NCBI GenBank assembly: GCA_950295325.1
Contig: OX485803.1
Location: 28,520,001-28,584,000, forward strand
From: Polytrichum commune
Lineage: Eukaryota; Streptophyta; Polytrichopsida; Polytrichales; Polytrichaceae
DNA: 64,000 nucleotides
Direction: 5' to 3'
The translations under genes were made by a program, and so were the position numbers. This document shows, one piece after another, positions 13,671-60,845 of the stretch. The first letter of the stretch is position 1, and each line of letters starts with the position of its first letter. The notes beneath the pieces were generated by a model, which had not been told where the DNA came from, ran no database searches, and was given only the letters and a program-made list of their open reading frames with translations.

Positions 13671-13674
13671 GCAC

Positions 13675-18636: not shown

Positions 18637-19105
18637 ACATGTGCCAAGAGCCATGACTAGGAAATTGTGAGAGCACAGATGAAAGTGTCCAAAGTCCGTC
18701 CCAACATACCTCCAAAATCACGTAGTGTGGCCACGGACCCTCAAGTGTAGTGTGAAGTCATATATGACCGGGCCCTCAACCAAATGCTATTTCATTGAAT
18801 ATTTATTCATGCGGGTCCTCACACATGATAAAATAGAATAAATCAACGGTTGTGAGTGTTCAGAGTGCCATGGTCTCCCAATTTTGAGTTAGGCCTACTT
18901 CCAAGAGGTGGTTTTTGAAAATAGTCCAAGTGGCCATGAAACATGATCCATTTGATGCCATGGAGGAATCCATGTAGACTTTACATCCGTCTTGCATTCA
19001 CATACTCCGTTGGTCCCTCAAGCCTAGTGTGAAGTGAACTTGGACCGGCTCCACCTTCTCCACCAATGAGAGTGCTTGAAGTGTAATGGTCACGGGCTCC
19101 GAGTC

Positions 19106-29527: not shown

Positions 29528-29563
29528 CAAGTGGGGCTTGGGGCCAGGGGTTTGTAGCGATCC

Positions 29564-31579
29564 ATGGGAGGGAGGAGCGGCATGGCTCCAGCCATGGCTG
29601 CCATGGTTGCGAAGCCTGTAGTGGTGGTGGTGGTGTTGTGTGCATTGTTGATGTGTGTTCCTGTGAGTGGTTTTTACCTGCCAGGGAGTTACTTGCATCC
29701 GTATCGCGAAGGGGATAAGCTTGATGTGAAGGTGAACTCGATTACTTCGATTGAGACCGAGCTGCCTTACTCGTATTATAGTTTGCCTTTCTGCCAGCCT
29801 CCTGAAGGGGTCAAGAAAGTGGCGGAGAATATCGGAGAGCTGCTCATGGGGGACCAAATTGAGAATTCGCCGTATCGGTTTACGATGATGAAGGAGGAGA
29901 AGGATGTGAAGGTATGCGTTGCGCCACCTTTGAGTGACAATGATGTGAAGCATTTCACGCAGAGGATCGACGATTATTACCAGGTGAACCTGATTCTGGA
30001 CAATCTGCCAGTGACGCGGTACACGAAGCAGCGGGACTCCACCGCACTTTTGCGGTGGACTGGGTCGCCGATCGGATTCAAGCTCGACAGTGACAAACAG
30101 CACTACGTGTACAACCATCTGAGGTTCAAGGTGCTAGTGCATCCTTATGATGTCGACCCTTCTGCCACAGTGATGGGAACTGGTGATGGTCTTGATGCCA
30201 TCCCTGCAACCGGATATCAGAACTTGACTGGGACCTACATGGTGGTGGGATTTGAGGTCGTTCCTTGCAGCATTGTGAGGGATGCCAAGGCTGCATCTGC
30301 TGTTGAAAACTATGGCAGTCTTCCACAGTCCGATTGCAACCCTGAGGGGCCGCATCAGCCTGTGAAAACCGCTGAACAGATTGTGTTCTCCTACGATGTC
30401 ACCTTCGAGAAGAGCGACATCCGGTGGCCCAGTAGGTGGGATGCGTATCTGAAGATGGAGGGTGCGCGAGTTCACTGGTTCTCAATTCTGAACTCTCTCA
30501 TGGTTATCTCATTCCTAGCTGGTATAGTGTTTGTGATTTTCTTGAGGACAGTGCGACGGGACTTGACTAAGTACGAGGAGCTGGACAAGGAAGCTCAAGC
30601 GCAAATGGCAGAAGAGCTGTCCGGATGGAAGTTGGTGGTGGGCGATGTGTTCCGTGCGCCTCAAAATTCGCAAATTCTTTGCATCGTGGTGGGCGATGGT
30701 GTTCAAATATTAGGAATGGCCGTGGTTACCATCCTGTTCGCCGCTTTGGGATTCATGTCCCCTGCTTCTCGCGGAATGCTGCTGACTGGCATGGTGTTGC
30801 TGTACCTGTTTCTGGGAATCGTTGCCGGGTATGTTGCCTCCCGAATGTGGTGCACCCTGAAGGGCAACGCCGGCGGCTGGAAAGCCATCGCTTGGAAAAC
30901 AGCGTGCTTTTTCCCAGGAATTGTGTTCACAATCCTGACCGTGCTGAATTTCATCTTGTGGCGAAACGACAGCACGGGAGCCATTCCCATTTCTCTTTAC
31001 TTCATCCTGATTCTTCTGTGGTTCACCATCTCCGTCCCTTTGACGTTCTTGGGTGGGTACCTGGGTGCTCGGGCCGAACCGATCTCGTTCCCGGTGAGGA
31101 CGAACCAGATCCCACGAGAAATTCCTCCCCAAAAGTACCCGTCATGGCTGTTGGTGTTGGGTGCCGGCACACTCCCGTTCGGAACGCTGTTCATCGAGCT
31201 GTTCTTCATCATGTCGAGCATCTGGATGGGGCGCGTGTACTACGTGTTTGGGTTTTTGTTCGTGGTGTTGGTGCTTCTGGTGATCGTGTGTGCAGAGGTG
31301 GCTGTGGTGTTGACCTACATGCATCTATGCGTGGAGGACCATCGGTGGTGGTGGAAGGCCTTCTTCGCCTCTGGTTCGGTGTCTCTTTATGTGTTCCTGT
31401 ATTCGATCAACTATCTAGTATTCGACCTGCACAGCTTGAGCGGCCCGGTATCGGCAGTGTTGTATGTGGGGTACTCCTTACTGATGGTGATTGCCATCTT
31501 GTTTGCAACCGGCACAATCGGGTTCCTGACGTCCTTCTATTTTGTCCACTACCTCTTCTCGTCTGTTAAGATTGACTAG
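29564..31579 (+). CDS. Transmembrane 9 superfamily member (TM9SF/nonaspanin), intronless
   Basis: A Golgi/endosomal membrane protein family that helps sort other membrane proteins and affects adhesion and nutrient responses. The single exon encodes 671 residues, the usual length. A signal peptide (~1-36, VVVVVVLCALLMCVPVSG then FYLPGSY) is followed by a luminal domain with the family block ETELPYSYYSLPFCQP and DDYYQVNLILDNLP. Nine hydrophobic spans start near residue 310 (LMVISFLAGIVFVIFL) and end with the last span before VHYLFSS. The C-terminal VKID contains the KXD/E COPI-binding, Golgi-retention signal. The start ATG has a good context (gatccATGG). Plant members of this family are often intron-poor, so lack of introns does not prove a retrocopy. 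G/C-rich codon use in the exon contrasts with its AT-rich surroundings. It is intact. Confidence 0.97.
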   Translation: MGGRSGMAPAMAAMVAKPVVVVVVLCALLMCVPVSGFYLPGSYLHPYREGDKLDVKVNSITSIETELPYSYYSLPFCQPPEGVKKVAENIGELLMGDQIENSPYRFTMMKEEKDVKVCVAPPLSDNDVKHFTQRIDDYYQVNLILDNLPVTRYTKQRDSTALLRWTGSPIGFKLDSDKQHYVYNHLRFKVLVHPYDVDPSATVMGTGDGLDAIPATGYQNLTGTYMVVGFEVVPCSIVRDAKAASAVENYGSLPQSDCNPEGPHQPVKTAEQIVFSYDVTFEKSDIRWPSRWDAYLKMEGARVHWFSILNSLMVISFLAGIVFVIFLRTVRRDLTKYEELDKEAQAQMAEELSGWKLVVGDVFRAPQNSQILCIVVGDGVQILGMAVVTILFAALGFMSPASRGMLLTGMVLLYLFLGIVAGYVASRMWCTLKGNAGGWKAIAWKTACFFPGIVFTILTVLNFILWRNDSTGAIPISLYFILILLWFTISVPLTFLGGYLGARAEPISFPVRTNQIPREIPPQKYPSWLLVLGAGTLPFGTLFIELFFIMSSIWMGRVYYVFGFLFVVLVLLVIVCAEVAVVLTYMHLCVEDHRWWWKAFFASGSVSLYVFLYSINYLVFDLHSLSGPVSAVLYVGYSLLMVIAILFATGTIGFLTSFYFVHYLFSSVKID

Positions 31580-32904: not shown

Positions 32905-35900
32905 CTAAAAACCCTCTGGAGCAATGCGCATGACGTGTACTGAATGCTGTCGGAAGGTTGCAGACAGTGCGCCGCAAAGCTTGGCTGTTGCATTCAATCT
33001 CACACAATCCTCCACGGTGAGTTTTTCTGGAATAGGCGGCTGTGGAGCAAACTCAAGCTCATGCTCCGATTCTTGCCATGGGGTCACTGGAGTAATTGTA
33101 CTGGGCACACTATCTGGAACATTTAACAGGAACTCTCGAATGGTTTCTGCTGCAGGTCCGCTCATCTGTGACTCCTGGCTACTTCTCTGGCTTGCTAAGA
33201 ACAAGGACACGGTATCCTGCCAAAATACACTCACCAACTTTTGTCTCAGGCCTTGAAGTTACTTAAGGTAATGTGGCCTTATTGTGGGCTGTTCCAACTC
33301 CACATACAATTTTGGCCATTGGATTGCATTGGATAGTATTGGGAATTTGTCTCATCTGGTTACGTATTGTGAATCTTTTAAACCTTAATATCATAATTCA
33401 AGACACATACGTCATAAGAAGTCAAAGTGAGGATTTCTTTTTTTGTTAAGTGATCACATAGGTCCTCCCAATTTTGTTCACTATTGAACCTAGAACATTG
33501 TCTATTTTTTGAGCACATAGTCCAATTTCATGGTAATATGTGTCATTTTGGTGTTTGTTCTTAACTTCAAGCTTGGCATATATCACTCAAATGTAAGTGT
33601 TAACTTTGTAAGTGACCAAAGACCTAACAAAGAAGCAACTTTACGAACACAAATTGCAGATTAAAAGCAATCTTCGTATAGTATATACTGTATGTGTTTT
33701 GTAGGAGGTTACCTTTTCACTAGGAAGCATTTCGGGGTCACTACTAACATACGAAGGAACTGTTCGAGGCTCCACATGTGGTGTAACCTTCTCAATACCT
33801 GCTCTAAACATGACATCCTGTAGAAGGCAAGCGACAACAACATTTTGGAACATTAACAAACTTATCTGTAGCTCATCATGCAATATTCTAATACAAATTG
33901 ATGTTTCCTTTTATGTTGTCCTAAATCCCTCACATTTTGTTGAAGTCAAATTACCTAATTGTCAAGTTAAAGATGCACTCACTCATTGACATAGATTGAG
34001 AAACATGAGGTTGCAAGTGAATGGTTGCACCCTAATGTTCTATACTAGGATTTCACAAGGGGACAAGTAATGATTTTAGGTGCGGAACTCTATATTTTCT
34101 TGAAGCAAATGTTTCATATGCATGACTTGCCATCCGACGGTTGCCCCATGTCCAATTATGTAATGCCAATTCTGGTTGGCTCATTATGAATGAGGTGATA
34201 GGTGCGAGAAACCTTGTCACAAGTTGTAGTTAGTGCCTAACCTATTGAGTTGAGGTAGTGACAAGTAGGGTGTCTAATACAACTGGTGGCAAGGTGACAT
34301 GTGTCCATTACCGGACATATTGGTTAGGTTGTGGCATGGTCATCAATTACAGGTGATAATGTTTCTCCTCGTAACCAATCAAGAATAGACATTTTATCAA
34401 AATTGTTTGGCCTGACCCTTATGTAACACATACTCAGTGTTGAAAGAGAGCAGGAGAATCATGTTTGAAGCCCATGATTGAAGATGAAGCATGGAGAGGC
34501 TAAGAGCACGAACTACCCCTGAAGCTAGTTGATAAGCTAAGCCACTTCAAATAAAGGGTATGTAGGAAACACACCAACATATCATCAGTGGTCCATGTTA
34601 AGCAGCCAGCTTCCATGGCACCATCAACTCCACTTGGGTATAAGGCTTGTATCAGTTCTGTGGGGCTCAACTGTGCTTCATCAGGGGCCCTGCAAACCAA
34701 CAACAATAACCTCTACTTTTGTAAGACTATGCATCAACTTAAGAGAACAATGTATTAGGGTTCTATATGTCCTAGAGATGTCTGATGCTTCTATCAAATA
34801 GAGGAAAGCAATGAAATGATGATAACATCGTCATCCTGAAGTGGTGGCCCCTCATAGTGGGTTTAATCCAAAGTTGGACCAATATCAATAATAGCATCAA
34901 GAACCTCCTTCACTGGTATCAATTGTAATACTAATCATGTTATGATAATTGGTGGGTGTCACAAAATGAGAGAATCATTGTTTGGCCGAGTCAATATTTG
35001 GATCAATACCGTTCTAATACAATAACTAGGATTATTTTATAAAGGTTTGAAGTTTCTTGAATTGTATATGGTTTTAAATACAAAGAATTTCCTTAAATAC
35101 CTGTACCCTCCCAGTACCTTCAATATGCATACCTGAGTAGTATAAACAAAAAGGTGACACCAGTCCAACACTGGTTTTACCTATCTATCAGGCGATACTT
35201 GCTGTGACATGGTTTTCAATCTATACATAAACTCCTGTTGCAAGAAGAAATAAAATAGAAGGTGATTGTTGTAGTACATGGTGGTGGCGAGGACTGTGAA
35301 AGCCTTTCGTAGTGCACGTTCGTAAGATGCATCACGGCATAGATACAACAGTAAGGTCTGCCATGGAAGGCTGTTCTTTGCCTCCTTTTCAGCAACGGAG
35401 AAAACGAACGTCTTAAGGGCTCCTATAAAGTCACACTTCTGGACTGAACTCTTGGCACTCTCAACTTCTGAATCTTTGTCTTCTGAATCTTTGTCCTCTG
35501 ATTCGTCACCTGCATGGACAACAAGACAGCTGATTCATACGTTGAATGGATCTAGATAAATCTAAGACTTTTGCTCGTGCACACACTGAGGACATAACCG
35601 ATTTCAGTCCTGGGTTTAGGGCGCTTTTGTTTTTTTTATAAAACAGCCAACAGCGAGATAGATTAACATCTATCACCTTCTGCAAAAACCAGGCCGAATA
35701 TTGAAGATGACCGGATCATTAGATGGTTGCAGTATTTACATCTACACTAAAGTTATCCTTTCACTTAAATGGGGCCTTTTGCTAGGAGTTGGTCTCCTAT
35801 CATTTTCCATTGATTGTTTTGCTTACGATATCAATAATTTGAATACATGCTCAAAGAATCTTGCTTGAATGCGAGATAGAAATCACATACTGCTCTCTAC

Positions 35901-38900
35901 ATCTAACCAAATTTTGGTGTTCAGGAAGTCTTCCAAAGTGATGCATCCCGTTGTTTGATCCCCTGGCTGCTTTGTAGCAACCACCATAAAGAAATCTGAC
36001 CATAAACACACAACGAATCGCAGTAAGATTCAATGCTTTGATCTCCATGTTTAATCCTGGAAACTGCATATCTGAGATTATTTGCAATTCATCCGATTTG
36101 AAAGGAAATCACAATGTTATGCATCAACTATAAGAAGATCGGATGTTTTCTGTTACAAGTCTCCTTTATAACCTGCATTGGAGTATAATGAAACAACATA
36201 GGGTCTGTATTGTGGCTCCTAAACCAAGCATAAGGATGAGAGTACCTAATGGCCACTTTACACTATGGCCAAGGGTTGTGACCATGAAATTGTTAGGGCC
36301 CTTGAGACTCATCTGAAAGGTGTACCATTGAAAATTGAAACTGAATTTTAGGTGCTCATGGGCCTTCAAGTGCAATGTTAAGGCATTCACGACTGGCTCT
36401 TAACCGAATGCTATCTTATTACCATCCTATTCATGTGGGCCCCCTTACACAATTGGTTACAATAAAATATCTCAAGGGTTGTGAGATTTTGAAGTGTCAT
36501 AGTCTCACGGTTTTGTGTTAGACCCACCTCTTTGAAGTGGGCTTGACGCAAAATGCAGTAGGCCATGAAGCATTAACCATTGCATGCCAGGACTCCATGT
36601 AGGTTTTTTCATCCATTTGATTTATTTGGTACCTTAGGCCCTCAAGCTTTAGTGTAAAGTGTAGTGGGACGGTCTTGGCATTTTCCACAAATGAGAGATT
36701 CTGGATTTCAATTGTCATGCGCCCTCAAGCTCTAATGTAAAGTGCCCGTAAGTGCTCAATAAGTGCAACATATGGTTAGAAATACCTGTCCGTGCTTGCA
36801 CAATGTCATCTAATGTGGCAGCTGAGATGGGATAATCAAAGTGTGCGTCCGCTAGAGAGACCAGAAAACCTCGCCACTCTATTACAGAGGTGTACCCTGG
36901 CTCTTTTTCTCCAGTTGATTGCTGTTTAACCCATCCCTCCGTCATGTTAGAGTCTATTGAAGTTTTTGAATTTTTGACAAATCGATTGGGCCAAACCTTC
37001 CACCTTATCTTTTATTACCCAATATTTCCTAATCAACAAGTCTCGGGGGGTGCACTATACTAAACATGTACGAGTATACGTGAGTGCATAGGAGGGGTAT
37101 TGATTTGGACCTTGCCGTATTATGTATACATATGGTATACATGTTATAATTGATAGTTACGTACATATATGGAAGGCCTTTAAAAAATATACAATAATTG
37201 TACTTGTATGGTACTGTTACTATACTACATATCATAAGTTTTCATATTTGATGCGGAGGAAGTTTTGTAATCGTTGGGTGGAGTATAGGGATCCAATTGA
37301 CTTGATGGACCGTCCGTCAAACGTGGAGATTGGTTTATGTTGGTATCAAAAAGGGGCTAACAACAAGTGGACATATGATCTTACTGATCATTTGATGGTA
37401 GACTTAGAGACAATAATTGCATTGGCTATAATGACATATATTGGTGAATCAAATGTTTATGAGTTACATCCGGGAGATGAAAAAGTTTTCAACGACTTTG
37501 CTGATGAAAGCTAGGATATTTTGTTATACATATTATAGGGGTTGATTATTGTTCAAAAGTATATTTGTATACTTATGTTAATGACTATATATGAATGGAT
37601 GTTTTTTTGTGTATACATATTGTCACTTGTATATTTATTGTTGCTATTGTATGTGTATTACTTCATTTCACAAAAAATAACTTGTATATAGGGGGTTTTT
37701 AGAGTATGTAGTGAACGCACGTGATTCTAGGTTTTAATGAAAGGTGCACCCCCGGAGCAACAAGTGAGACATTTAAGAGATGATCACTTGAAAAGTTGGC
37801 TTTTGCACTTAACCAGAAGTTTGAGCGAACGAGAGGGTTGAAGTCTGAATCCGGGTACCTCAATAATATCATATGCAAGATTAGCCCAATGCTGAAAATG
37901 CCCATAGCGTCTACTCTTCGTTAGAGGAAGCCGATTGTAGATATTATGTTCAGGATCGTTTCTCCACATCATGTAGACTTCATCAATTGCAGCCAAGGCT
38001 GCCTCAATTACTTTTTGTGTGGTTGCAAATCCCCCTGTAGATAAGGAATTAGCCATGATACTTTTAAAAGCGAGAGCTCAGTAAGGAATCATACTTGTAG
38101 AATGTTCTATAATATCTACAAATTAGTTATCACATATATTGTATTGTATTGTACTGTATTGTAGCGTATTAATAAAATGTCATAAAATGGTTATAAAAGT
38201 CTTAACCTGCAGCTGGTCTTTCTCTACAACGCTGAAGAAATCATTTGCAAGGAGTGACATTGACTTTCAGTAAGTTTACCTCTAAATTTCTTGAATTCCG
38301 CAACAAGGGACTCCATAACCAGGATGTGCCAGGGAGTGAGGTCTATGATTGGTTCCGGTGGCACATGCACTATCTGCAAAATAAATAAATAAACTCTGTA
38401 GAATTTAGTCAAGTCGACCCACAAAGTTAACATGTCAGGTCATTTTTCAGAACTCATCACATGGCAGATCTGAGAAGTGAATTACGGCATATACTGCATT
38501 GTTAAGTCCCCATGGATGTCTTGATCTAAAATTATAACAGGCGAGTTTAACAGGACAAAAGGTTCAATGTACAACCTACATACACTATTCTACAAGCCTC
38601 ACCAAGCCTTCAGATCATTTATTTATTTATTTATGGGTTTGAAACTTCATTAGTGCAATATCTTATGTCAAGGAGAAGTTAAAAGTATATTCATATGTGT
38701 CAATGATAATCAAATACGTAGTGTACATTTGCATTTAAGGACACCCATGCTCTGTGTTTGAAACAAATTTTCAATAGCATTAAGGTATTCCCTTGATTTG
38801 GAAAGAGCACTTGAAGCATGAGATAATTTTAAATAGGGTCATATTTGACACCATCAGCTAAAACTGAAAGCATGTAGCTCAAAGACAAGTTTTTTTAGCA

Positions 38901-41900
38901 TTGAGAGGTCCAAATTCAGCCTCTTAGGCGATTACGAGTTAACATGAGTTTGAAGCTCAATTTGTGTAAATCTTTCCTAAGACTAATATGCTTAATCACA
39001 CCAAGGCTGCAAGTGATCAAAGGTACATAAAAAGACCTCCAAAAGTTTTAATGCTCTCACCTGAGTGATTTCATTCTCATCCACCTGGAAATTATCTAGC
39101 TCCATCCAAACGCGGTACCACAAAGGTATGCGTTCTCGAATTGCATCTTCTACTACTGATATCACCTCTTCGACTAGTTCAGACTCTGCCTGATGGTAGA
39201 TACAAGAGTAATATCAAGTGATGAATATGCAAATATATCACAACATGTACCAAGCTTTAACATCAATCATGTATGGCCACTTCACACTATGGCCAAGGGC
39301 CCTTGAGACTAATCTGAAGGCCATACCATGGAATTGAGATTGAAATATTTGTGATCACAGTCCTTCCGGTGCAAAGACATAGGCAACCAATCTATCAATC
39401 AGTTGCTAATTCATTACCATCCTATATATGTGGGCCCATCTATACAATCACTTGTAATAAAATCAAGAGCTGTGAGATTATCAAGTGTCATGGTCTCCTG
39501 GTGTTGTGTTAGACCCACCTCTTGGAGATGGACTTGACACAAAATCTGATAGACCATGAAACATTATCCATTGCATGCCATGTAAGACTCCATGTAGGTT
39601 TGCTTATCTGTTCAAACTTCCTTGTTGGTCATTGAGGCCCTCAAGCTCTCGTGGAATGTGAAGTGGGACGGTCTTGGCATTTTCCACAAATGATGGGCCC
39701 TCAAGCTCAAGTTTGAAGTGTTCTTAAGAAGAAATTAGAAGGTTGAGATTCATACATCACATCGCCTCATGAGCCATTCATCCATGCAGCCATATGCACC
39801 ATCACAGACAGGCTGCAACTCCTCAAGATACTTGCATGCAGTTCTTGCTGCACTCACACAAGAAGACAACGTGAGCTGGTATACATATGTCGGATTTGGT
39901 TCTATCTGAGAAGACCATATGATGTTTTCGTGAAGTACATCTTGGTCTAAATTATGATACCAGTTGTGCCAAAAGATGAGGTCATAGAAATGAGCAACTA
40001 AAATTTTGGTTGTGCCTCTTGTTGACATAGATTCCTTACGAACTAGGTAATGGATGTGAGGAGCCTTGCCAAGGCTGTAGTAAGCGCCCAGCCTATTGAG
40101 TTGTGGTAGCAGCGAGGTCAGTACTAGGTGCATACTACAGTCAATGGCATGGCGACACATGTACATTACCGGACGTAGTGGTCAGGTCATGATAAAGTCT
40201 TCCATTATGGGTAATAATATGCCTTCTTATATCCACTCAGGAATAGACATGCAGCAACATCGAGAGTGTGAGATGTAACCCAGCAGTTCGAGACGGTTGT
40301 AAAAGATCTGATGTTCACGGGCAATAATTGGCGGAACACTAGAGTCAAGAGGAATTTTCTCTCGGAATGTGGGCTTTGTTACTCTCATCCAAGTATTACG
40401 GCGGCCACTCATTCTTCGTGTTCGGTGCCTCCGTGGTTGCATTTTCATATCACTGCCTGCTCTCCCTCCAACCACCTCTAGCATGTTGCATGCCTTGGCT
40501 AATGCCTCACACAACACCTGCAAGTCATTTCAAGTCCATATCCTTCTGTCATTTTAATAACCATACAAAGGAGGAAGAGTGTTTAACGTTTTTTTACTCC
40601 CACGGCACGCACATACCTCAGGATTTCTGAACTAAATCAGTTATTAGGGAGGAATTTATGTGACCACAGAATGTTTTAGTTCCTTGGATGGAGCGCACTG
40701 AGTGTGGTAAATACTGTGGGCCAAGCTATTGAGCTTATTTCCACACTAAAAACATTGGAGATGATACTGTGGGTGCACATTATTTGCCAACCCCCATAAT
40801 ATTGAACATCAAAGGTCCACGTTGTAGGTTATAATTATAATATTTCTGCTGGATTGAAAATAGTGTGCATTTGAAAGACTTCCAACCGTGTGGAAGGAGG
40901 TGGGTACATCATGACATACTGGCTGAGGATATATGCATCAAGGTTTCGCAATGCTAGCTTCCGAAATTTCTCCCTAACTAGATTACAATTGAATATTAGT
41001 AGTACAATCACAAGTTAAAAGACTTGTGTACTAGAATATATCTGGTCAAAATTGTATTAGTCACCACGTGAAATTCTGGGTAGGAACCTTCGAGGGGCGG
41101 TAACCATTTGGGTGTCATAAATCTCCAGGTGGGCTGCCTTCGGGACGTTGACAAACTGCACCGAAACTGCTTTGCAAAATTTGATCCGACCTTCTTTGAG
41201 TAGTATTCGTGTACTAAGCCACACGACTCCAGATGCCTATCCAACTATTGACCCAACAAAAATATAATTAGAGCAGTGACAGGAGTGCCTTTTCAGAGGT
41301 AGCTTGTATGTTGGTTACCATTATATCAATTTTACACATTGGGGATACACGAATCAGAAAGAAGAATTTAGTAAATTACCCTGACCTATCTGGGCTTTCC
41401 AGCTTCGCGTTTACATTCAAGGTATCTCGAATATTAGCTAAACTTAATCAATTGATATACTGTTTGATTAAAAATATCCATACTCAATAAAGGAAAGTAT
41501 GTGTTTGTGGCAAAAAACAGATCTACGTTTTAGATGACTCAACCTACCTCTGCTTGCACGAGCAAGGTAAAGAGGGATGTGAATGTTGCAGTCCGCTGTT
41601 CCAGTAGATCCTCAAGTGTTCGCTGCTCAGTTTCCTTGCCATTCTGAAAATAAGAATCTCAATCAGAACTCCCACGGATCGATCTCTCGCAGAATGAGAA
41701 CCTTAATACAGAAACAGTCTCCAGCCAATGCACCGTTTAGATGGAATCAGACTTTCATGCGACATGTATATTATCATGAAGATCCTCATCTTCAGATTGA
41801 ATCTCTCTTACTTTATCTAGTACCTACTAACGGCTCTATCCCGTCGCTGACGCCTGGAATGGTTTCAAACATTAGAGAAATGAAATTCAAACTTTCAAAT

Positions 41901-44900
41901 GGAGCCAATACTAGAATAGCCGCTCCCATCACTAAACAGATCCACGCAGTAGTAGATTAGATATATTAACTGAACAATCAATGGCTTCATGAAAATGGGT
42001 GAGTGAGACCATCGTTTCAGAATGTCATGGACATTTCGAAGGTAAGGCAGATTGCAAACGTACCTGTAAACGTTCACTGCAGAGTGCGCGCAGAACTTCA
42101 GCGAACCTGGCTCCTTCCTCATACAGCCTTTTTTGCATCGCCCTTTCACGCCGCTGGGGTATTTCAATCCTGTTGTACCTTTCCTGTATGTCTAATAAGA
42201 CCCAGTTTGAGCGTCTCCATGAAAATCGTCTGCATGAACTTCAGGTAACATGTTACGACAGTGAAACGGTATTTCTTGTGCATGTATTAAATGACCACAG
42301 GCACTGAGAGACACCTGAAAGTTTTCAAAGAGCTCTTGCTTTCCGTTCAGTTGTTTCAAGAGATCAGCAAAATTCCTTTTTGCCTGTGGAGTAACTTAAG
42401 AATTAGATGAGGATGTGGAAATTGGACGTGATGTCCCAAAAGCAAAATAGTGGTTGACAATTCGGCTTTGGTCGATTGTATAGTTGTGAGAACGTGCATA
42501 GATCTCTAACGTACACATTAATTACTTCGAATTTTTATACCAGAATCCTTGTGATATAAGTACTGTTTTAACTCCTACCTGAAAGCTGCTTACATTTTCT
42601 GCAACAACATAGCTGTGATATGCAGAAAATATCACCTCAATTAGCAACGGTATGGTTCGCTGGCGTTCACGAATCAGGAGCCTGAAGCCATCTTGTAAGG
42701 TCTGCAAATAATTCTCTTCGAGCTCCTCCCATCGTTTGTTTATCACCTCTGCAAACAGTACACAATCTCATTTCACCATGTCATCATGGCACGTTTTTAC
42801 TTTGAACCTCTTTACTTGGCCTTATGCCATTTCTGGAACACTAGTACTTTCAGTTTGAACATAACTAAGAAAATTTGTGACAGTATGCACATTGTTGACA
42901 TTTTCAGTGATTGGCAGATTCTGACTGTTTGTCAAAGACTTAAAATGCAAAGGAGATGAAGGGATCAAACTGACAGGGAAAATAATTCCTCACCTGCAGT
43001 TTTTACTTTTTCCTCGACTTCTGGGTCTATTGGTGGCTTCACAACTGGTGGTGGGGGCACAGGTGGCTCCTGAATCTGCATTTTATCAACACAATATTTT
43101 TTTTGTCTAAAGTGAGACGCACCCTCTCACTTCTAGCAAGATTAATATGCAACAGTCTATAACTCCTTCCTTTTGGTGAATTAGATTACTCAACTGTGGC
43201 ATTGTCCGATATTATGGGTACAAAACCATCTTGGTTCCAAAAGCTGCAAAGTCGAATTATCTGTCAAAATGGTCTCAAAATATCCAGTGGTTCCAATGTA
43301 AAAGTATAGAAACACTCCCAAGTATTTATTGTGATTGACCAAAGTCCTATCCTTTGCAAGGTAAAGCTTGATTCAGTTGACGTTGGTTTCATTGATTATT
43401 GATGCACATTGAGTCAAAAACAGTTGACCATGTTGATTTGTTGGGATAAAATAATCTGTGAATGACAGTACCAAAGAACCTGCATTGCCACTCTGACCCG
43501 AAGACAGAAAGTGTACCTACCTAATATACAACTTAAAACAGAACCAGCAGCATGTTATGCGAGGAAGTCACAGCGCTTCATGCATCCATATGGAGATTTT
43601 ACCTCTTAAGTGTCCGGGGTCTTCCAAGGAACAGTACAAAGGTGACCCGTTTGATCCCCCGACAATTAAGATTTGTAATAAAAAATAATGGGATTTTATA
43701 AGTGCATGCATTCACAACTTCAGTCTGCTCTAGATCGTAGTGACTTGGTAAATTTGAGTAGATTTGAGTCGTTTTGCTATTTCATGCAGGTACATGAAGA
43801 ACAAATGTGTCAACTATCACATGTCATTCTTCATATGTAGAATATATGACCCAGCACTTTTAGAAGATAAAGTCGTCCTCTATATTGAAAGATGGAAATG
43901 GGTAGTTTAAATCCAAGGATTTAACCCGGATCCTGTGGGAACTCTGAGCTGAAGCTGCCTAAGGCTAGAAAAGTGCTCAGATGGATGGGTGACCTTCCTA
44001 GCACTACCACCTATGGTCCACCCAATCATAGTGCGAGTATCCAGGGTGAACCAAATATTTTCAACAAACCATGTGGGAACCTAGAGGCTTGCTCTTGGGG
44101 AGACTAGACTTGGGCTTGTCTGAGCCCGTTCAAGGTATTCACTTTTGACAAAGAGGCAGTAATCTTCAAGGTCCCTCTAATGCTTGTGATGTTCATTTTG
44201 GAATTCCATATAGAGTTAGACTAACTCAAAGATGAAGCAACTCCATAATTCATAATTCCAGTGGCAACATTGGAGTCATCTCCTTTTTTTTTTTCTCTTT
44301 TGAAAGATGGAAGAAGATTTTCATAATAGGCTACCTCTGCTTTATCTGGTCCCTTTGCACCTTTCGCTGTAGGGGGTGCTGGTGGTGCTTTACCCTTGTC
44401 AGCTTTAGGTGGCGGAATAACTGCCTTGCCCTCTGATATGTCTTTCGCAGTCTGTACAAGATTGATAGCTTTCTGGCTTGCAGCTGCAGCCTTCACAGCT
44501 GACTGTTTTGCAACTTCGGCTGCTTGAATCGCCTCCTCTTTGCAAAGGTTAGCCACCTCTGGACCTCCTTCAACAGTCTTTTCCAAACCCATCAAAAATT
44601 TCAATAGACATTGCGTTGAGAATATCTGATTAGGTCTTAGATGATTCAAAACAAAGATCAGCAGTAGGTGAGGGATTTTCTTTGGTGTGGAAATAATCTC
44701 AAGGCTGGAAGTAAGCCCACAGTATTTACCATACACTGAGTAAGGTAAGTATTAAGGTTACCATAATAGTGTCCATTTACTTAAATGGACACTATTAGCT
44801 CTGCACCCACTTCTCATAGGATATGAAACACAAAATTAGTTCAAAATAATTGCCATTTAAAAATCATGTTTTCCTCATAATTTATCATTGGAGCTCATAT

Positions 44901-47900
44901 GAATATCTTATTCATTGTCAAAGTGAAGATTCTTGTGGACATTGAATGGTCATTTGGGTCTCCCCCCCCCCAATTATGTTGACTATTGAGCCTAGAATGA
45001 TTAATATATTTTGAGCATGTAGTCCAATCTCTTCTAAACACATGTCTGTTTGGAGTCCAATCTTGAATCTACACCTAACGACACACCACTCAAATATAGC
45101 TGTCCGATTACAAAAAATGACATGAAAGGCCCGTTTACCTTGGTTAGTACAAGGCATTTTCAAGGCACAAGGTATTGTGGTAAGATGTTCTACCTGGGAA
45201 GCCTGGCTTTCCTCAGCATGCTTCTGAGCCAGTACAGCTGCAGCGTTTGAGTCGGTTTCAGCATTTTCAGCCTCCTGGATAGCCTTGGTAACTTCGTCCA
45301 GCATTTTTGCAATTGCATCACTGGGCTTCTCTGTAGGCGGGGGTGGTTTCCCTTTAGCAGCTTTTGGGTCAGGTGGAGCCCCTGCATCTACAAGTAGGCT
45401 TGGCTTTGCCTCTATCTCCGCGAGTTTTGTCTCAAAAAACACCTTAGCTACATCCTCAGCTGCCTTTCTTGCTCTTACAACTTCCTTAGACGCCTGCGTC
45501 GGCATCGTAAGCAAAACCACTGAGTATCAAGGTTTTAGGGCAAAAGAAAAGAAAAGATAAGAATACTGCCTATGTTTCCCAAAACTATCATGAACTAAAA
45601 ATTTTCTTCGCCTGCATGCTACTGCTTCACCTAAGAGGACTCTTTCCAACGGGTGTAAATCATCCATTGTTCCTCCCCTACTAGGCTCGCTGAGCCCGTC
45701 GGTACCCACAACTTTTAAGTTGACCGGCAGACCTGTTGACCCCACAATGACTGGGTGGACCATAGCAGGTAACACCAGCATGACTTGGTGCAGAATGGAA
45801 TCCACACCGCTTGCAACGTGGAGATGGGTCCCAACCACTCAAGCTATTGGCTTAATGCTGGTTTTAAGGACAAAATAATCCTCAATCACCATAGAAAGTT
45901 CACCTCCAACTTGATTAGGCAGGTCATAAAATTTGTATAGCAATCAAGGCGCACAGCTAAGAACTACACAGTACGTATTCTTTAGTCACTTTTTGAAACA
46001 CAAATATATTCGAGAGCTCTATCTTCTGTACAAATATAATAGGTTCAATCCCACAGTTCAAACTTAACATTTGATTGCTTGCAACTATGACCTCACCTCT
46101 ATTGCCGCTGTAACTGCTTCCTTTGCCACATGCATAGCACCACTGGTAGCCCCTTTTTTAGCTTTGGTGTTTATAAGGGTCGCGACGGTTTCTATCACCA
46201 TAGTCAGATTTAGCCTCCAAACTCCAGCTTCGTTCAGGATTCGAGGCACCGAGTGCACATTTCCAAACTTACTCAAAATTGTCTGCAACGATTGCAATTT
46301 CTCTGCCTCAGCAGCCACTCTCTCACAAAGATACACCTCTGTATCCAAAGGTTGAAGGCGTTCTGCAATGCCCCTGGTTTTCAGAGATATTATTCCACCA
46401 TCAAGAACAAGACAAAATTGGAGCTTCTTGAGAGGAAAAAAGACTAAAATTGAAAACACTGTGATGAGTGTTATTGAAAAGTGCCGTAGCATAATAGAAT
46501 TCTAGTGAGCCGAGGATAGTTTTCCATCATATTGGACTGGACTAGTTCAAAACACTAGAGTCATCCGTACTGTAATTTTGTGTTTCAAGGGGATCCAGAC
46601 CCTCATAAGTGGGTTTCAGGCGTGAGAATGTCTGGATCCGGAAAGGAGAGGAACTTCAGGGTCTTCTATATGTAGCTTGTGCAGCCGAAATCATGGACCC
46701 TTTCTTTAAGACTCATATATCAAGAGAGTAACAACTTTTCGGCCTAATGGAGGAGAGTTGTGTCTATTCCGGGGCTCAAACTCAAAATTGGGTTCTGTAA
46801 GCAGAACCCAATCTTCCTTAAGGTTTTTCTTAGGCCTTAATAGAGGGCACTAAAAACGGGATTTTGAGAAGATACCTCTAAAACCATGATACTCATGGTT
46901 TCGACCCTTCCTTTTGCCACTTATTAGATAACTTCAATACTGTGTTCTATTCTGTTTTTTGACTCTATTCTGGGAAGAAAGTCGTGGCAAATGGAAATCG
47001 TGAAAGGAACATGGCTTACGTAGTATCTTCCATAGGGACAGGATGTCTTTGAGGATGGTACAATATTCCCGTATTAGGGTCAACAGCAGACTCCAACAGA
47101 AGCTTCATTATCTCATCCTCGGGGGTTGGTTCCAGTATCAAATATGTATCAAGTCCTGATTCTTGTTTCTTTTCAGTCTCCTGAGACACCCATGATCTTC
47201 CATGAGGTAAAGCCTCTCCTGATGTGCAATAAATATGGATATAAAACCTAGTCGATTAGCAAATCTGGTAAGAATCCGTTGCTTTAAAAATGACTAAACT
47301 TCAATTCGTGACGAATTTTCAAAGAGCATAAGTGTGATCTTCTTAAGTGGTTACGTAGGTGCATCTAAAGTGGTTAGTGTTGAGCATTGACGTTTTGGCT
47401 ATCCCAACCAACAAGCCGTTGTATCAATTCTTGGGTTAATTATAGAATATTCTTGGATATTGACTCATTTTGCACCCAAAAGTGTTTGAATGAGGTTGGT
47501 GTTTGAGTAAGACATGTCTACCTTAAGCACAATTAGAACACACAAGTAGCCATCAAATACCAAAGAATATCTGAGACTCTGCACCCTCCGATGTCATGTT
47601 ATCGAATATACTTACAAGCTCAGGAGGAGGGGCAATTTTTGAGGCCTTGGCTTGCTTGGCCTTCTGGGCTTCAAGATCAAAACCTGTCAAGCACTTCTCT
47701 AACGCTGCTGCCTGCCCACCTGTTTGGGGGAAGTCTTGCAATACAAAGCCCGACTCGTGGATAGTTGCTCCTACAGGAGGCAATGCTCCTTTCCCTCCTT
47801 TCATACCTGCACATAATTAACCGAAGATAAGTAGGACTACTTCGGCTACTTAACTTGTATCATACACCTATATTTGAGTGGTGTGTGGTTAGGTGTGCAT

Positions 47901-50900
47901 CTAAGAACGGACACCAAGATGAAAGAATGTGTTTAAGAGAGATTGGACTACACGCTCAAAATTTGTTAACCATTCTAGGCTCAATAGTCAACATAATTAC
48001 AGGAACTTAAATGATCATTCAATACAAAGAGAGAATCTTCACACTAACAAAACATAAAATATTATTTATAGGAGTACCAAAAATCATGAGGAAAATCTCT
48101 ATGGCCTCAATCTGGATTTGTTAATCACTTCATACTTATAGAGTGTTTCATATTCTAGGAGAAGTGGGTGCAGAGCCAAAAGTGTCCATTTTAGGCAATC
48201 AGTCAGAGGTCAAGCCATCCATTGTCAATACTTGTCATAGCATCAGAATTATATGTATGAACAGATATGACTGAATGAATAACATTGACAAGTGGCTCAT
48301 TAGACCAGTTCTATCTCGCTCCCCCAACAATGGTAATATATTTCATGTGATAGCCAAGAAATAAATATCTACTACTCCAGATAGAAAAGGAAGAAGGTTA
48401 TAAGGTGTTCAAGAAATCCTAACTAGGCTTCTTTGGTGGAGGAGCCTTGGCTGCAGGTTTCCCATCTGTTGCAGATTATAAAGTCATGACATTCATTAGC
48501 ATGCACATAAAAGACTCTTTAAAAAGGCATTCTGCTTCCTTGATTATTTTCTTGTCACTAGTAGTTGACCTATGCAAGGTCACAACATGGGGTACCAACA
48601 TATACAGTCTGCCCTCTATATTTGTTAACTATGGAGTGGAAATTTTCTTAACACAGAAACAATGTTATCACTTTAACATATACAAAGTCAAAACAAACAA
48701 GATAACACTTATAAATGTAACACAAGTAAATACTATAATAACATTAACCAAAATCTCAAAATACAAGTGAAGAATTTCACTCCTCCATTTCCATTCCTCT
48801 AGAATGGAAGAAGGCATCTATAGAGGTCTGTTAGAATTGATTCACATGGAGGACTCTACTTGACTTTGTCGATACAAGGAGATCTCTTTCTTCTGAGCCA
48901 AACTAAACTCTAAAGTCTTTCGCATCTCTACTGCCCGTACATGCAATTGAAAGATAGTTGCTAAACCTCAACCATAAGGACACACAATCTATCTACAAAA
49001 ATTAAAACAACACCCTCAATTTCCATAGACAAAACTTGCGGCCGCCGCAAGAGAATTTGTTTAATTCCAGTAGAGGAAGAAAGAAACAAGGGCAGAGCGG
49101 CCGCTGCAGGAGACTTGGAAGGCAGATTTTGGACAATCATAACTCACTCGCTAGATGTCGGATTTCAACAAAACTACTACCTTTGGAACCGCCTTTTCAA
49201 TAGCTTTCTAATCTTATGCAAATTGAATTACAAATCCGAAAGTAAGAAGCACCATTCTCAAGAATTCGAGCACTGTGGTTCAAGCAACTAGGAAAACTGA
49301 GTTGACGAGACTTGAGAGGGACTTGCAATCAATATCTTGGACTTCCTCATTTCTAATTGGAGATTTACTTGAAGTTCTATATGATATGTAATATTTTAGG
49401 GTATTGTATAGTATAATAGTAAGTTACTAGATATAAGAGAAAATATACAAAGAGGGAGTAGACACTCAGGTAACACTTAACACTTAACGTGTTTGTAGTC
49501 TCGCAAGTAGGGAGTAGAAAAAATGTTAACACATGGAATTTTAACACTTATAGATGTAACAGATTTAGAGAACAGACTGTAACATGTTGGCTACTGTCCC
49601 AAAATAATATTGTAGTAGATTCTGGATATCTCAAAAAATGCCAAGTACTTATGAAGTTGATTAATTTAATGTCATATATACGTTGAGTAAAAATTCAGAT
49701 CCAGTGACTTCTAATTACATAATTTTCATTATGTAATTTGCAGTTACACATTGACAGGTTTGATTGAAGGCAAAGTTGACAAAAGAGGAAATGACAATGA
49801 AAAAGAGTTGCTAGTGTAAGTGCACGTGCTTCACATTCTCCATCTACAAAAATGACAAGGGATATGATTGTTTCTTGAATCTGCTACTGACCTTTAACTG
49901 CTGCAGGAGGATCTGGACTTACTGGTGCCACTGTGCACAAACCCACAAAACCAATTCAGACAAAGAGATCTATTTTGTGTTCACAGTCCTAGTGAATAGA
50001 CATGTATAGCTATTTAATGCATGTATAAGACCATACCATATTCCTCGGGATTTAGCATTGTCAACAACACTAGTTGTGCTATAACGTCATCTGGTACCTG
50101 TAACAACATTCAAATGATATGTTCAGAAACTTCAGGCAAGCTGGCAAAGTTGCAAAGTTGATCCTAAATCCATGAAAGATATTTGATGCCCTACTTATTC
50201 CCCCAAACTAGTTATAATTCTGAAGATGTCACTTACAGGTTCTTTCTTGTTGATGGCACTTTTGGCTTGTAACCCCAGGCGTGCTTTTGGGGGCAAATTG
50301 GCAAGAGCTTCTGCTAGAATATCTTCTATTTTATGCTCAATTCCATCCTCTGCCTCTAGATTTGGAGTGACCTGAGCAGCAAGTTTACTTTTGACTCGCT
50401 CCTCCTCTACACCCATTTGAAATGGTAGGAACTCTTATGATTTATCAGAAGGCTTTTTTTTATGTCTGAAGCATTCCTTGATAGGATTCAGTTTGCTGCT
50501 AATAACAGAATATAAAAGAATAAAAATAATTGTGTACTAGGTAGCAAAACACACCAGAAGTGCCAAATGCGACTGCCAATTTTTGAACCTGTTGTGCTTC
50601 AATACGCAGGATACCATATTCTGCCTCCAGATGCTTTGCTACCACATTCTTCCCTACCCAACATGCACACCCTCCTTTCGTTTAGCACAATCTGATTCTC
50701 TCAAACCACCTTTGGGAATGAAAATATGTCCAATCCTGTCATAACAGCAAGAACCTCATAAGGGCCAGGCCACTTCAACCTAGTGCTTGAGGGCCCGTGA
50801 CCATTGAAATTTACAATCTTTAGTTGGTGGAAATGGCCAAGACCGTCCCACTTCATTGTACACTAGAGCTTGAGGGCATAAGGGACCAAGGAAGTTTGAA

Positions 50901-53900
50901 TGGAAGAATAAACCTACATGGAGTCCTACATGGCATGCAGTGGATAATGTTGCATGGTCTACTAGGTTTTGTGTCAAGCCCACCTCAAAGAGGTGGTCTA
51001 ACACAAAACCGAGAGACCATGAAACTTCAAAATCTCACAAGCCTTGATTTATTATACCTTATTGTGTGGGAGGTCCCACAAAAATAGGATGCTAATGAAA
51101 TAGCATTCGGTTGAGAACCCAGTCGCGTATGACTCGACTCTACACTTGAAGGCCTGTGACCACATAACATCAAATTCAATTTGTCCCTGGTATGGCATTT
51201 GGGTAAGTTTCAAGGGCTCTCATAATTTCATAGTCATGGCCCTTGGCCATACTGTAAAGTGGTCCTAAGTTCTGACACTTCGAGCAAGGGATTTTCAGTG
51301 ATCCTCGATCCTACAGTCCTTTCCACCTCCAACTATACTTCACACTTGTGTAATTGGCTTAAACATGCACAGGGATCTATATTATTAACAGGGAGATGAG
51401 GTCGGAAACTGGAGATCTTGGCTGAGATAGTCAAAATAGATTAACCTTTGAACTTCAGCGCGGATGAGATCAGTTGCACCCTACTTACAGTTTTGACACA
51501 TTCTGTGGTTTTATTTGTCTAGTATTTGATGAAAGAACAAGCTTTTGATGGCATAGACAAGAATATTTCATACTGATCATACAAAAAAATACCTGAACCT
51601 CCTACAACAGACAGCTTGAGTGTAAACTTCGTGAGGTCGGGCCGTGCAAATGGCTCAGCCAAACTATCAGCCAACTCATCAAGGTGTACCAAAAAATGGC
51701 CCAACTGTTTATTTTTTCCTATAGGCTCCACGCCCTCAGGGCTCCTGTACTCTTCTTTCTCATTCATATACGCCTCCACCTCTTCCTACCAGAGCAAGAC
51801 AATGTCTCAACACATGTAACAAAACTAAGTGGCAAATTTGAAAAAATAAAATAAGACTTATCCTTTAAGTTAATGGGACTTTTGGTCGGGAGTTGGTTGT
51901 CTTCGCATACTACACCTTCCATGTTTGGTAAGGTTTTCGGTGCATGCAAGGAAATAGTGTGGAGGTTTGAACAAAGAACGTTCTATTTTGGTTCATTAAG
52001 GGTCCAACTCATTTTCATATGCCAAGAGGTGCTGAAATTTGACCTTCAATAAATCAAAATAGGTTGCTCTTCATTCCAAAAAAACAATACCTCCAAGCCT
52101 ACACCACAAGTAGAAAGAGATTATTGATTTTGGATGTAAAAAACAACAATTTTTCAGAATGTTCGTCAGACAAATCCTAGTGGATACCTTGGCAAGCCTG
52201 ATTTCCTTTTCAGTCGGTGGCTCAGCAGGTGGCGGAGGTCGTGGTAAAACCACAGGCAGAATAGCTCCTTTTATGAACAAATTCTTCCATTCCCGCCAAT
52301 TGTTAACTGGTAGGTTCTCTCCCACCTCTACACGATACTCATTTATGCATTCTGCCATGCTAACAAACTGTCACCACCCCCAACACGAATAAGAAAATCT
52401 CTGTAATCCATTGGTTCTGATTTTATTTTTTTGAGGCACATATAAACCTCCTCACAAGATTCAAAATACTCACAAGGAAAGGCAAACTACACATGATCAA
52501 CAGTCTACGGCTAAAGCATTGTTGCTGCAACAATGCAGAGGACCTTGAAAAGAAGCGAAAGAGAGAACCTGAAGAATGATGTCAAAACAAAAGTCAAAGT
52601 GTTTTTTCCTCCTCTTTCTGCGCTTTTCTTGTATCTCCTCCTGCAAAATCCCTAGCAAATGTTTAGGGTATGCCAGGATGGATTTGGCAAATCAAAAGAA
52701 GCCTTCTTTAAGGTTTGTACATAACACTCTTAAGCATCCGTAAGGACACTCTCTTTCTATTCTAGTTTCAAGGTCTTTGAGTATATGCTCTTTTCGTACT
52801 GAGCACAGTCAAATGACAAGCTCTCAATAGTCGACACCTCATTGGTGCCTATCTTCGGACACAAAACCTTCTTCCATCTCCCAAGATTCAATTCAAAACG
52901 TGCGTCTCCACAAAATATCATTCTTACGTTATCTGAATTACCTAAGAATTATTCCATTTGCATTGAAACCTATACAGGCTACTTCAAAATGACATATAAG
53001 TATTGCCTTTATAAGACAGGTTCTTATGGGAGTTTATGCATGCAACTGGCAATGTACCTGCCACTCATTGTATTCTTGATTAATCATGTCGACTATGTCA
53101 TTAAAATACATCATAAAGCATTCATGTTCCTGGGCACGTATCAAGTCCCATTCAGCAGATCTCTTTGCCGCGAGCTCTTGCTCCTGAGCAAGCCTCCTGT
53201 CTTGCTCCACCTTTTGTTCTTCTTCAAGTAATCTCTTCTGCTCAGCTTCCTCAGCCTCTGCCGCAGCCTGAATTGCAGCGTCTTCCTCAGCTTTCTTCGT
53301 GGCGGCTTCTTCATCTTTCACTCGTTGCTGCTCCTGCTGCTCAAGCAGCTCCTGTCATTGGATCCACCACTTGCAATTAAGGTAAATGGGTCTAAAAAAC
53401 ACGATTAGCTCTGCACCCGCTTCTCCTAGCATCAACCTAGGATATTAAACATGCAATTAGTACAAGATGACTAGCAAATCTAGATCAAGGCTATGCCCAT
53501 TCTCCTCATATTTTTTGGAGCTTATATGAATATCTTATTCATTATCAAAGTGAAGATTCTCATTCTTCTTAAACATTCAAGTTATATTGATTATTGAACC
53601 TAGAATAGTTAACAAATTTTGACCACGTAGTCCAATCTTCTTAAAACGCATGATGCCTTTTTGGTGTCCGTTCTTAGATCCACACCTAACCAATTTATAG
53701 TTGTCCAACTAAGATAATTAACCAAAATGGGCCTGCTTGCCTTTGTCCCCTGCAAGACATGGGGTACCTGACAAGGAGCCAATAAACCCAAAATTTTCAT
53801 TACCCTCCATCTTGACTGATTCTAGATATTATGGGACCCCATCAAAAAATATCGTATAGATATGTATAATGGTAGAGCACCTGTCTTTGTTTTTGCAGAA

Positions 53901-57649: not shown

Positions 57650-58405
57650 CCCTCCTTGGATATCCCTAACATAGTTGTTGTCACTAGTCTTGAATGCACG
57701 AGCTAATTCTATGGCCGTGTCAGGTGTTGCAAAAGTCCCCGTCTCAGGAACTGTGCATGGATAATTTATCCCTTGTGATTGTCAAATGTTTCAGTGTTTC
57801 AGTTTTACATGATGGTAATGTTTTAATGTTAGAATATGACATTGCACAAATGTTTCATAATTAGTATAGATGTACATGGTAGATCAATGTTCCCATTTTG
57901 TTCCCTACAGGGTCTCGATGATAAAGAACAAGGTGGGAGTGGATTTTGATGTTCACCGGAGGGGAACATCGTGGGGAACATCAAAATCCACTCCCACCTT
58001 GCACTTTATTATCAAACACAAGTTTGAAATCTCCATCATCTCCCTTAAGAAAATGTGGATAACATAGTTGGAGTAAATTTGGAAGGAAAAGGACGTAGGT
58101 TTGAATCTCATCACCTACAGTTGCATTTCAGTTACATTTAAATATCATTTTCACAACAATGTTCCATTTTTTAACATTCCATATTTAAAAAAATGATCAA
58201 GTCCCCTAGTAAGTTTATGCTTAACTTTAGAAATGTGAAACATTGGAACATTATAACATTGAATGTGTGTAATTACTGGTAGAATGTGAGCATCTACCCG
58301 TATGTGGTCATTGAGGTGATATTATGCTTTGCTATTTCTAACATGGCCATAATTAGCTCGTGCATTCATGACTAGTGACAAAAACTATGTTGGGGCTTGG
58401 ATACG
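57650..58405. mobile_element. Foldback element, ~750 bp, with a 26-bp perfect central hairpin
   Basis: Outer arms CTAACATAGTTGTTGTCACT ... GAATGCACGAGCTAATT (57666-57716) are inverted at 58344-58392. The centre has perfect 26-bp arms, 57929-57954 and 57976-58001 (AAGGTGGGAGTGGATTTTGA and complement), around a 21-base loop. The arms between pair only patchily. No coding sequence. Confidence 0.8.
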
Positions 58406-59457
58406 AAGGTTTTGAATTTCGTGGTAATATGTTCACCACACCACTGATGCGGTCAAAGCTCTCTATAAAATGGATGGTTTTGATTTGAGAATATCTTAGA
58501 GGTTAATTCAAAAGGCAATGGACCATATTCTGTCAATGGGGGAAAATGACGAGAAAGCTTACATTGCACAAGCCCTCATTACCTCTCATGAAAACACCCT
58601 GAGAGGTTGTAAGTTGTGAGGGCATGGATGGGGGGCACACAATAGAGGGGAGTATTTTCCCATGGGGTGGACAATTTATCGGAAACCTAAGTGATGTGCG
58701 TGTGTGAATGAGTATGAAATAAAACCCTAATATACAAGATATTTACGGAGAAAAAAAATGTATTTTTGCTAAAGGTAGGCTAGAAAATAGACTCGTGTAT
58801 TTATTGTAAGCTTTTCAATCTAATGTGATAAATGCCTCCACTACATACACAAAATATAAATCATGAAATAAATAAGCCTTTATTACATATTCAATCCACT
58901 TTCACTTTCCAATGAGAAAGTTATTGAAGATGTTTTTATCCAGAGGATGTAATATGACCACAAAACACACGTCATTGAAGCTAAGGCATGGTTTGTACAT
59001 GGTATGAAGACCACCCCCCCCCCCCCTAGGCTTGAAGTTGCCACTCCTAGGAAACTCGTCGGTTTAAAAGCTTTTAAAAAAAAATTAAAAAAAAACGAAA
59101 ACTTTGAATTTCTCTTGATCGTAAAGAAGATGTTGCATCCCACCACGGAGCACCTCAATCCACAAGCAACAACAAGCACAAATTAGAAGACAGCCTTCAC
59201 GTGATTGGATCTTGTGTTCAATGGACCTCAAACATGGGTCTAGGGGTGCACTAGACTCTTCATACCACAGACGAACTAACATGAGTGTAAGAAGTAATAT
59301 TTGAGATTTTTGGGCATAATTGGTCAAAATCCTAGTGTTTCCAAGTCCAACCGGTTACATGTTGACATCTATCAGATCTTCTTTACTGATTTGAAGTATA
59401 CTCCATAGATTCCTCTAAAATGATGGGTAAATCTCCTGAAGTCTTGAATTTCAACCA
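58406..59457. other. Intergenic with poly-C tract, no gene
   Basis: A C13-14 run at 59011-59024. The block 59235-59320 resembles 12255-12330, and 59305-59385 resembles the interior of the hAT MITE (23540-23620). Confidence 0.5.
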
Positions 59458-60324
59458 ATTATTTCTCAACCTCAACCGGTTCATCTGTAACTGGCCGCCG
59501 GATCTCCCCGTTCATTGTGGCAAAGTGGACACCAACAGCTTATCGCTAAGACTCACTACAGACATCCATGAACGCATCGAGAATGAAACAGACATTTTCC
59601 CTCAATCCCCGATGAATGTATATATACTGCAACATGTTGAAGATCTCATGCAGACTTTGAAGCAGTGCCAAAGCATTATTTCTCAACCTCAACCGGTTCA
59701 TCTGTAACTGGCCGCCGGTTCTCCCCATTCATTGTGGCAAATTGGACACCAACAGCTTATCGCCAAGACTCACTACAGACATCCATGAACGCATCGACAA
59801 CGAAATAGACATTTTCCCTCAATCCCCGATGAATGTATATATACTGCAACGTGTTGAAGATCTCATGCAGACTTTGAAGCAGTGCCATAGCATTATTTCT
59901 CAACCTCAACCGGTTCATCTGTAACTGGCCGGCCGCCGGATCTCCCCGTTCATTGTGGCAAAGTGGACACCAACAGCTTATCGCCAAGACTCACTACACA
60001 CATCCATGAACGCATCGACAACGAAATAGACATTTTCCCTCAATCCCCGATGAATGTATATATACTGCAACATGTTGAAGATCTCATGCAGACTTTGAAG
60101 CAGTGCCATAGAATTATTTCTCAACCTCAACCGGTTCATCTGTAACTGGCCGCCGGATCTCCCCGTTCATTGTGGCAAAGTGGACACCAACAGCTTATCG
60201 CTAAGACTCACTACAGACATCCATGAACGCATCGAGAACGAAACAGACATTTTCCCTCAATCCCCGATGAATGTATACTGCAACATGTTGAAGATCTCGT
60301 GCAGACTTTGAAGCAGTGCCAAAG
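59458..60324. repeat. Tandem array of four 217-bp units
   Basis: ATTATTTCTCAACCTCAACC recurs at 59458, 59675, 59892 and 60113 (periods 217, 217 and 221; the third unit gains GGCC). Units are >95% alike. Each has ~60-codon open frames on both strands (plus: PRLTTDIHERIDNEIDIF; minus: LQMNRLRLRNNALALLQSL). 217 is not divisible by three, so no long frame runs through the array. It may be a young satellite or an amplified gene fragment. Confidence 0.92.
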
Positions 60325-60464: not shown

Positions 60465-60845
60465 AGACATGCATGTTATGAGGTAGTTGGTTTTTGCTCT
60501 GCACCTACTTTTTTTAGGATATTAAATACGTGATTAATTAGTACGAATGGTTAGCAAATCCAAATCGAGGCTAGAGTTATTTTCCGGAGGAAATATTGGA
60601 GTGCATACGAACATCTTGTTCAATACCAATGTGAAGATTTTGTTTCTCCTTGAATGATAATTATGTGTGCCCCCTCAATAATGTTGATTATTGAACTTAA
60701 GGTAAGCAACAATTTTAAAGCATGTAGTCCTGTCTCTTTTAAACACATATGTCTTGTTGATGTCCATTCTTAGGTTCACATCGAATCACACACTCAATTA
60801 TAGGTGTCCAATTATAAGTGATTGAACTGGGCCCACTTACCTAAC
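60465..60845 (+). mobile_element. MITE family A copy
   Basis: GCTCTGCACCTACTTTTTT, GGATATTAAATACG, GTTGATTATTGAACTTAAG, AGTCCTGTCTCTTTTAAACA and GAACTGGGCCCACTTACCT in family order. Confidence 0.7.

Follow-up and report, generated by a model that had tools for sequence, protein, structure and literature searches.

The locus analysed here raises the question of which kind of mobile element, if any, would account for a short 5S rRNA-like sequence that recurs within the window (the whole stretch of DNA under study, 64,000 nucleotides long). The first-pass annotation had proposed a dispersed retroelement with a 5S-like segment and had named two possible models, the Cassandra elements and SINE3. 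Our analysis supports a dispersed retroelement of this kind, and the SINE3-type option fits better than Cassandra, as indicated by a 13-bp target-site duplication (TSD), a 5′ end at about 5S +1 and a tail made of a T run. We consider it probable, at about 0.72, that the copies are fossils of a 5S rRNA-headed SINE (SINE3-type).

The window contains two copies with both a head and a tail, plus one eroded head. Copy 1 (43898-44299, plus strand) is a complete SINE-like insertion of 402 bp whose borders are given by the 13-bp TSD and whose 5′ end falls at about 5S +1. Copy 2 (13153-13895, minus strand), delimited by nhmmer and alignments, consists of a head (13895-13661), a middle (13660-13259) and a tail (13258-13153), and copy 3 (45647-45845, minus strand) is an eroded relative. 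The aligned heads of copies 1 and 2 span about 210-235 bp; 155 of the 202 ungapped columns are identical (76.7%), there are 39 gap columns, and the match reaches a BLAST E of 1.4e-20, confirming that the two copies first noticed on opposite strands are real. The interval originally assigned to copy 1, 43900-44130, covers only the first half of the element, which runs on to 44299.

The relationship of the third copy, also proposed at first pass, was borne out by an nhmmer model built from copies 1 and 2 alone, which detected copy 3 with an E of 1.1e-7, while the best match in the reversed window, used as background, had an E of 0.0072. Its score against copy 1, and likewise against copy 2, was equalled by none of 500 shuffles. 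The left part of copy 3 taken alone gave no significant similarity to copy 1 (192/500 shuffles) and a weak one to copy 2 (16/500). Judged from these scores, copy 3 is homologous to copies 1 and 2. A possible fourth remnant near 12006, the best tile outside the three copies, had an nhmmer E of 0.1 and is unsupported. Looking for relatives elsewhere, among viral and genome contigs, gave 13 loci, 3 of them without an nhmmer match at E ≤1; the matches at the other 10 were each short and located at the query motif, with a best E of 0.019. The search for relatives of the element in phages returned no match.

The 5S-like core of copy 1 (43926-43999, plus strand) corresponds to 5S positions 28-96, with a score of 56 (z 8.5, 0/500 shuffles), and that of copy 2 (13798-13874, minus strand) corresponds to positions 14-96, with a score of 51 (z 7.3, 0/500 shuffles); dinucleotide shuffles gave a background of 23.6 ± 3.8 and 23.0 ± 3.8, respectively. 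When tiles from both strands of the window were scored against 5S, these two copies ranked highest; a 5S score of 44 near 17601 is unsupported. The first-pass annotation had seen a 5S-like block in all three copies, which holds for copies 1 and 2 but not for copy 3, where no 5S core is detectable (score 25, equalled by 188 of 500 shuffles). Against plant, human and yeast 5S references, copy 1 scored 56, 43 and 29 and copy 2 scored 51, 26 and 23, suggesting that, of these three references, it is plant 5S that the 5S-like part resembles most.

Of the 69 core columns, copy 1, copy 2 and 5S agree in 36; in 15 the copies match each other but not 5S, and a change is confined to copy 2 in 12 columns and to copy 1 in 6. 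As judged from these columns, the common ancestor of copies 1 and 2 had already diverged well from 5S. Both 5S alignments end at position 96, and the sequence that follows is not 5S and is common to the two copies, in agreement with the shared non-5S flanks noticed at first pass. The Rfam 5S model found no match in the window (E ≤1) or in each copy (E up to 10), indicating that the sequence is not recognisable as 5S RNA, and the fold predicted for the RNA of copy 1 does not stand out (z −0.71, with 24 of 100 shuffles folding as well). The possibility that the 3′ half of the head holds another 5S-like unit was considered and rejected, the signal being too weak (equalled by 24/500 shuffles in copy 1 and 243/500 in copy 2).

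What remains of 5S in the head includes the putative promoter. On the plus strand, copy 1 has box A at about 43947-43958 and box C at 43982-43994 (GGATGGGTGACCT); on the minus strand, copy 2 has box A at about 13845-13835 and box C at 13815-13803 (GAATGGGTGACCT). Box A and IE are only partly conserved, and copy 1 has a degenerate box A. Copy 1 and 5S both have this box at +49 (the ungapped alignment would allow +50 for copy 1); its position in copy 2 is +48 when the count begins at 13893 and +50 when it begins at 13895, the first aligned base. Box C is found at +84 in copy 1, +80 in copy 2 (from 13895) and +79 in 5S, so the distance from box A to box C in copy 2 is 30 nt, as in 5S, and in copy 1 it is 5 nt longer. 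The 5′ end of copy 1, 43898, coincides within about 1 nt with the position of a 5S-type transcription start, so that two separate markers of this end, the TSD and the promoter geometry, agree. A TTTT aligned in both heads, at +160 in copy 1 and +182 in copy 2 (from 13893), could act as an early Pol III stop.

Downstream of the head, copies 1 and 2 share a conserved 3′ block, located at 44182-44283 on the plus strand in copy 1 (score 92, 0/300 shuffles) and at 13258-13156 on the minus strand in copy 2, with 74 identical positions in 98 ungapped columns. The order and orientation of head and 3′ block do not differ between the two copies. The middles between them, 75 bp in copy 1 and 408 bp in copy 2, are unrelated (265 of 300 shuffles score as high). 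The middle of copy 2 holds a possible MITE-like insertion (13325-13579, no strand assigned) with imperfect inverted repeats matching at 14 of 16 positions, and no target duplication was established around it. In copy 1 the 3′ block is followed by a run of T11 (44284-44294, plus strand) and then CTCTT; read from the sequence, this run is a candidate SINE tail or a candidate Pol III terminator.

Outside these blocks the similarity between the two copies ends. To the left of the head it was not significant over 200 bp (53/300 shuffles) or 1000 bp (64/100), and neither was it to the right of the tail (19/100). The ends of copy 1 do not form terminal inverted repeats (430 of 500 shuffles score as well). 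The 3′ block, in which the frame is open, was also considered as the end of a duplicated gene, and this was ruled out, as the TSD places the block inside the insertion.

The TSD itself is an exact 13-mer, TTGAAAGATGGAA, present on the plus strand at 43885-43897, where it abuts the head, and at 44300-44312, where it starts 5 nt after T11. A search of both strands found this 13-mer at these two places only in the window, both on the plus strand. None of 20000 dinucleotide shuffles of the left zone reached 13 nt, the best being 12, while random placements of the zones in the real window reached 13 nt in 126/20000 cases and those outside TRF-masked tandem arrays in 16/20000; these placements were not tied to the predicted element ends, which the real duplication abuts. 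The TSD was spotted by eye once the position of the second block was known; before that, a scan with different 3′ borders had yielded nothing longer than 5- and 6-mers. Copies 2 and 3 have no exact TSD, their longest repeats being 6 and 7 nt, respectively, and allowing up to one mismatch gave no repeat of 10 nt for copy 2 or 11 nt for copy 3. A TSD of SINE length is present in one of the three copies, and the check for a SINE tail and target duplications that the first-pass annotation had suggested succeeded for copy 1, with its T11 and 13-bp TSD, but found no TSD in copies 2 and 3. The parallel check for Cassandra hallmarks found no LTR pair and no Met-tRNA primer-binding site (PBS).

Taken together, the Pol III-type head at the 5′ terminus, the body, the 3′ block, the T tail and the TSD of SINE length make up the anatomy of a SINE, and as neither an LTR pair nor a Met-tRNA primer site nor terminal inverted repeats were found, the element is SINE-like and not Cassandra-like. 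As a SINE3-type element, it would have recruited Pol III through its 5S-type internal control region (boxes A, IE and C), with transcription starting at the first base, and its RNA would have ended in a U-run behind the conserved 3′ block of ~100 nt. A LINE reverse transcriptase would then have bound the 3′ end of the RNA, and insertion by target-primed reverse transcription would have left the 13-bp duplication. We infer Pol III transcription, LINE mobilisation and a land-plant host from the features of the DNA, and the copies are probably inactive today.

Solo LTRs of a Cassandra-type TRIM, in which the 5S-like promoter would sit inside the LTR and be moved by an LTR retrotransposon, are an unlikely alternative, even if the 5S-like core of copy 1, about 70 positions long, compares with the ~70-bp core of Cassandra, and Cassandra occurs in ferns. 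Neither copy 1 nor copy 2 has a second, directly oriented head within about 5 kb. In the 450-500 bp around each head, the closest approach to the Cassandra Met PBS, TGGTATCAGAGC, still differs from it at 5 of 12 positions, and the four places in the window with two mismatches or fewer are all away from the heads. In fern Cassandra the PBS is 8 bp from the 5S part, whereas here about 100 bp of shared head sequence follows. Of the published patterns, those of box C and the PBS have no exact match in the window, and that of box A has one, elsewhere, at 15542. A solo LTR, however, also fails the LTR-partner, PBS and exact-pattern tests, so the evidence against it comes from the 13-bp duplication and the terminal 5S part: the TSDs of the TRIMs Ajax and plant and fungal Helenus are reported to be 5 bp long, and the 5S part of Cassandra is never at the LTR termini, whereas here it is at about the 5′ end of the element.

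That copies 1 and 2 represent one old segmental duplication holding a decayed 5S-derived sequence would agree with the two blocks common to both and their conserved order and orientation, but there is no significant similarity outside or between the blocks, in copy 1 the two blocks are exactly what the TSD encloses, and copy 3 is at a third, separate location, making this reading very improbable. Less probable still, to the point of being hardly credible, is an origin of the copies as separate 5S pseudogenes, released together with spacer from 5S arrays. The 5S-like core itself would be expected of such pseudogenes, but the 15 columns out of 69 common to both copies against 5S point to one diverged ancestor and not to separate pseudogenes, the alignments stop at 5S position 96 to continue into shared non-5S sequence, and there is no Rfam 5S match.

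Copy 1 adjoins, in antisense, an exon-like open frame at 44221-44751 of the minus strand, and copy 3 lies between two frames, 44918-45526 and 46085-46501. When the flanks of copy 1 are joined, they give a 47-codon open frame in the stretch shown, which then meets a stop, so the insertion may have occurred in an exon or at the start of an intron. As for other genes in the window, 29558-31579 encodes an EMP70 (TM9) protein (Pfam E 5.7e-184), its 673 codons forming a single unbroken frame, and there are also Pfam matches to GH79 and EryCIII-like families. The frame at 35181-35534 on the minus strand has a weak match to SPEF2_C (SPEF2 C-terminal; E 0.0034, below the family cutoff) and no PDB match; it is a possible sperm-flagellum gene, which, if true, would hint at flagellate sperm in the host. 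In ten further frames all matches were weak and below family cutoffs, and five PDB searches with proteins of the window returned nothing useful.

Other repeats were also found in the window. One dispersed repeat, separate from the 5S element and about 250-350 bp long, has copies about 67-73% alike at 44780-45113, 47855-48194, 53399-53692, 60491-60807 and 9463-9722, and another of about 400-500 bp has copies about 69-78% alike at 36253-36747, 39296-39690, 50768-51262 and 18620-19097. Long imperfect hairpins, perhaps MITE-like, are present at 57917-58013 and 11601-11677, where Rfam miRNA matches are below gathering scores, and tandem arrays with units 94-98% alike occupy 59457-60324 (unit of about 217 bp) and 18256-18633 (about 189 bp).

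The comparison with known systems draws on the papers cited and on a literature search that covered plant 5S SINEs and Cassandra or other 5S elements in mosses, ferns, bryophytes and lycophytes. SINE3 elements are described in vertebrates and some insects (PMC7245038), and 5S-related SINEs in Aspergillus (PMC5063351). Like the present element, those of SINE3 type (zebrafish SINE3, AmnSINE1, HaSE3, PxSE4 and PxSE5) have a 5S-type A/IE/C promoter at their 5′ end, a length of about 400 bp, low identity to 5S and no coding sequence. The lepidopteran PxSE4, for example, is a 5S SINE of 389 bp whose promoter region is about 63% identical to Bombyx 5S (PMC8010984). Two HaSE3 relatives have TSDs of 19 and 8 bp, and HaSE3.1 has none (PMC3272025). 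The tail is different, being a T run in our element and (TGA)n or (ATGT)n in SINE3 (PMC8010984). In the literature covered SINE3 is animal or fungal, whereas our element is in a putative plant host and its match to plant 5S outscores those to human and yeast 5S.

The plant SINEs Au, p-SINE1 and ZmSINE2 have heads derived from tRNA, and in this they differ from our element with its 5S-derived head. Their tails, tabulated as (T) (PMC3747384), resemble the (T)n 3′ tail seen here, a kind of tail that many plant SINEs have. A TSD length of 8-16 nt is given for SINEs in a plant SINE annotation paper (PMC8825457), and the 13-bp TSD of copy 1 is inside this range.

Among the matches listed in the open-licence literature, judged by titles, openings of abstracts and selected passages, there was no plant 5S SINE, and the plant elements with a 5S promoter in the literature found were Cassandra. 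A published statement that SINE3-type 5S sequences occur "including plants" (PMC3095306) gives the Cassandra paper as its reference. A TRIM survey of 48 genomes reports 5S sequence in no TRIM family except Cassandra, and no TRIM in Physcomitrella (PMC4717578). The TRIM Ajax, from nemerteans, is like our element in that its partial 5S segment is a promoter only, with no 5S fold (PMC10886601), and is unlike it in having LTRs, a 5-bp TSD and a Leu-tRNA PBS.

Cassandra, a plant retroelement, has a 5S promoter core of about 70 bp like that of our element, and its 5S part is reported never to be at an LTR terminus (PMC10853983); the fern elements carry the PBS TGGTATCAGAGC at 8 bp from the 5S part (PMC7215508). 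The LTR pair, the Met-tRNA PBS and the internal 5S position of Cassandra were not found in our element. An insertion of SINE3 has been proposed as the source of the 5S part of Cassandra (PMC10886601). That seedless land plants have a 5S-headed SINE lineage of their own, with the present element a member or a relative of the missing plant class of donors to Cassandra, is a speculative and rather improbable extension of the SINE3-type reading. A plant 5S SINE, if true, would mean that the 5S promoter was captured through a LINE-dependent route in plants too, and would provide a candidate donor for the proposed origin of Cassandra.
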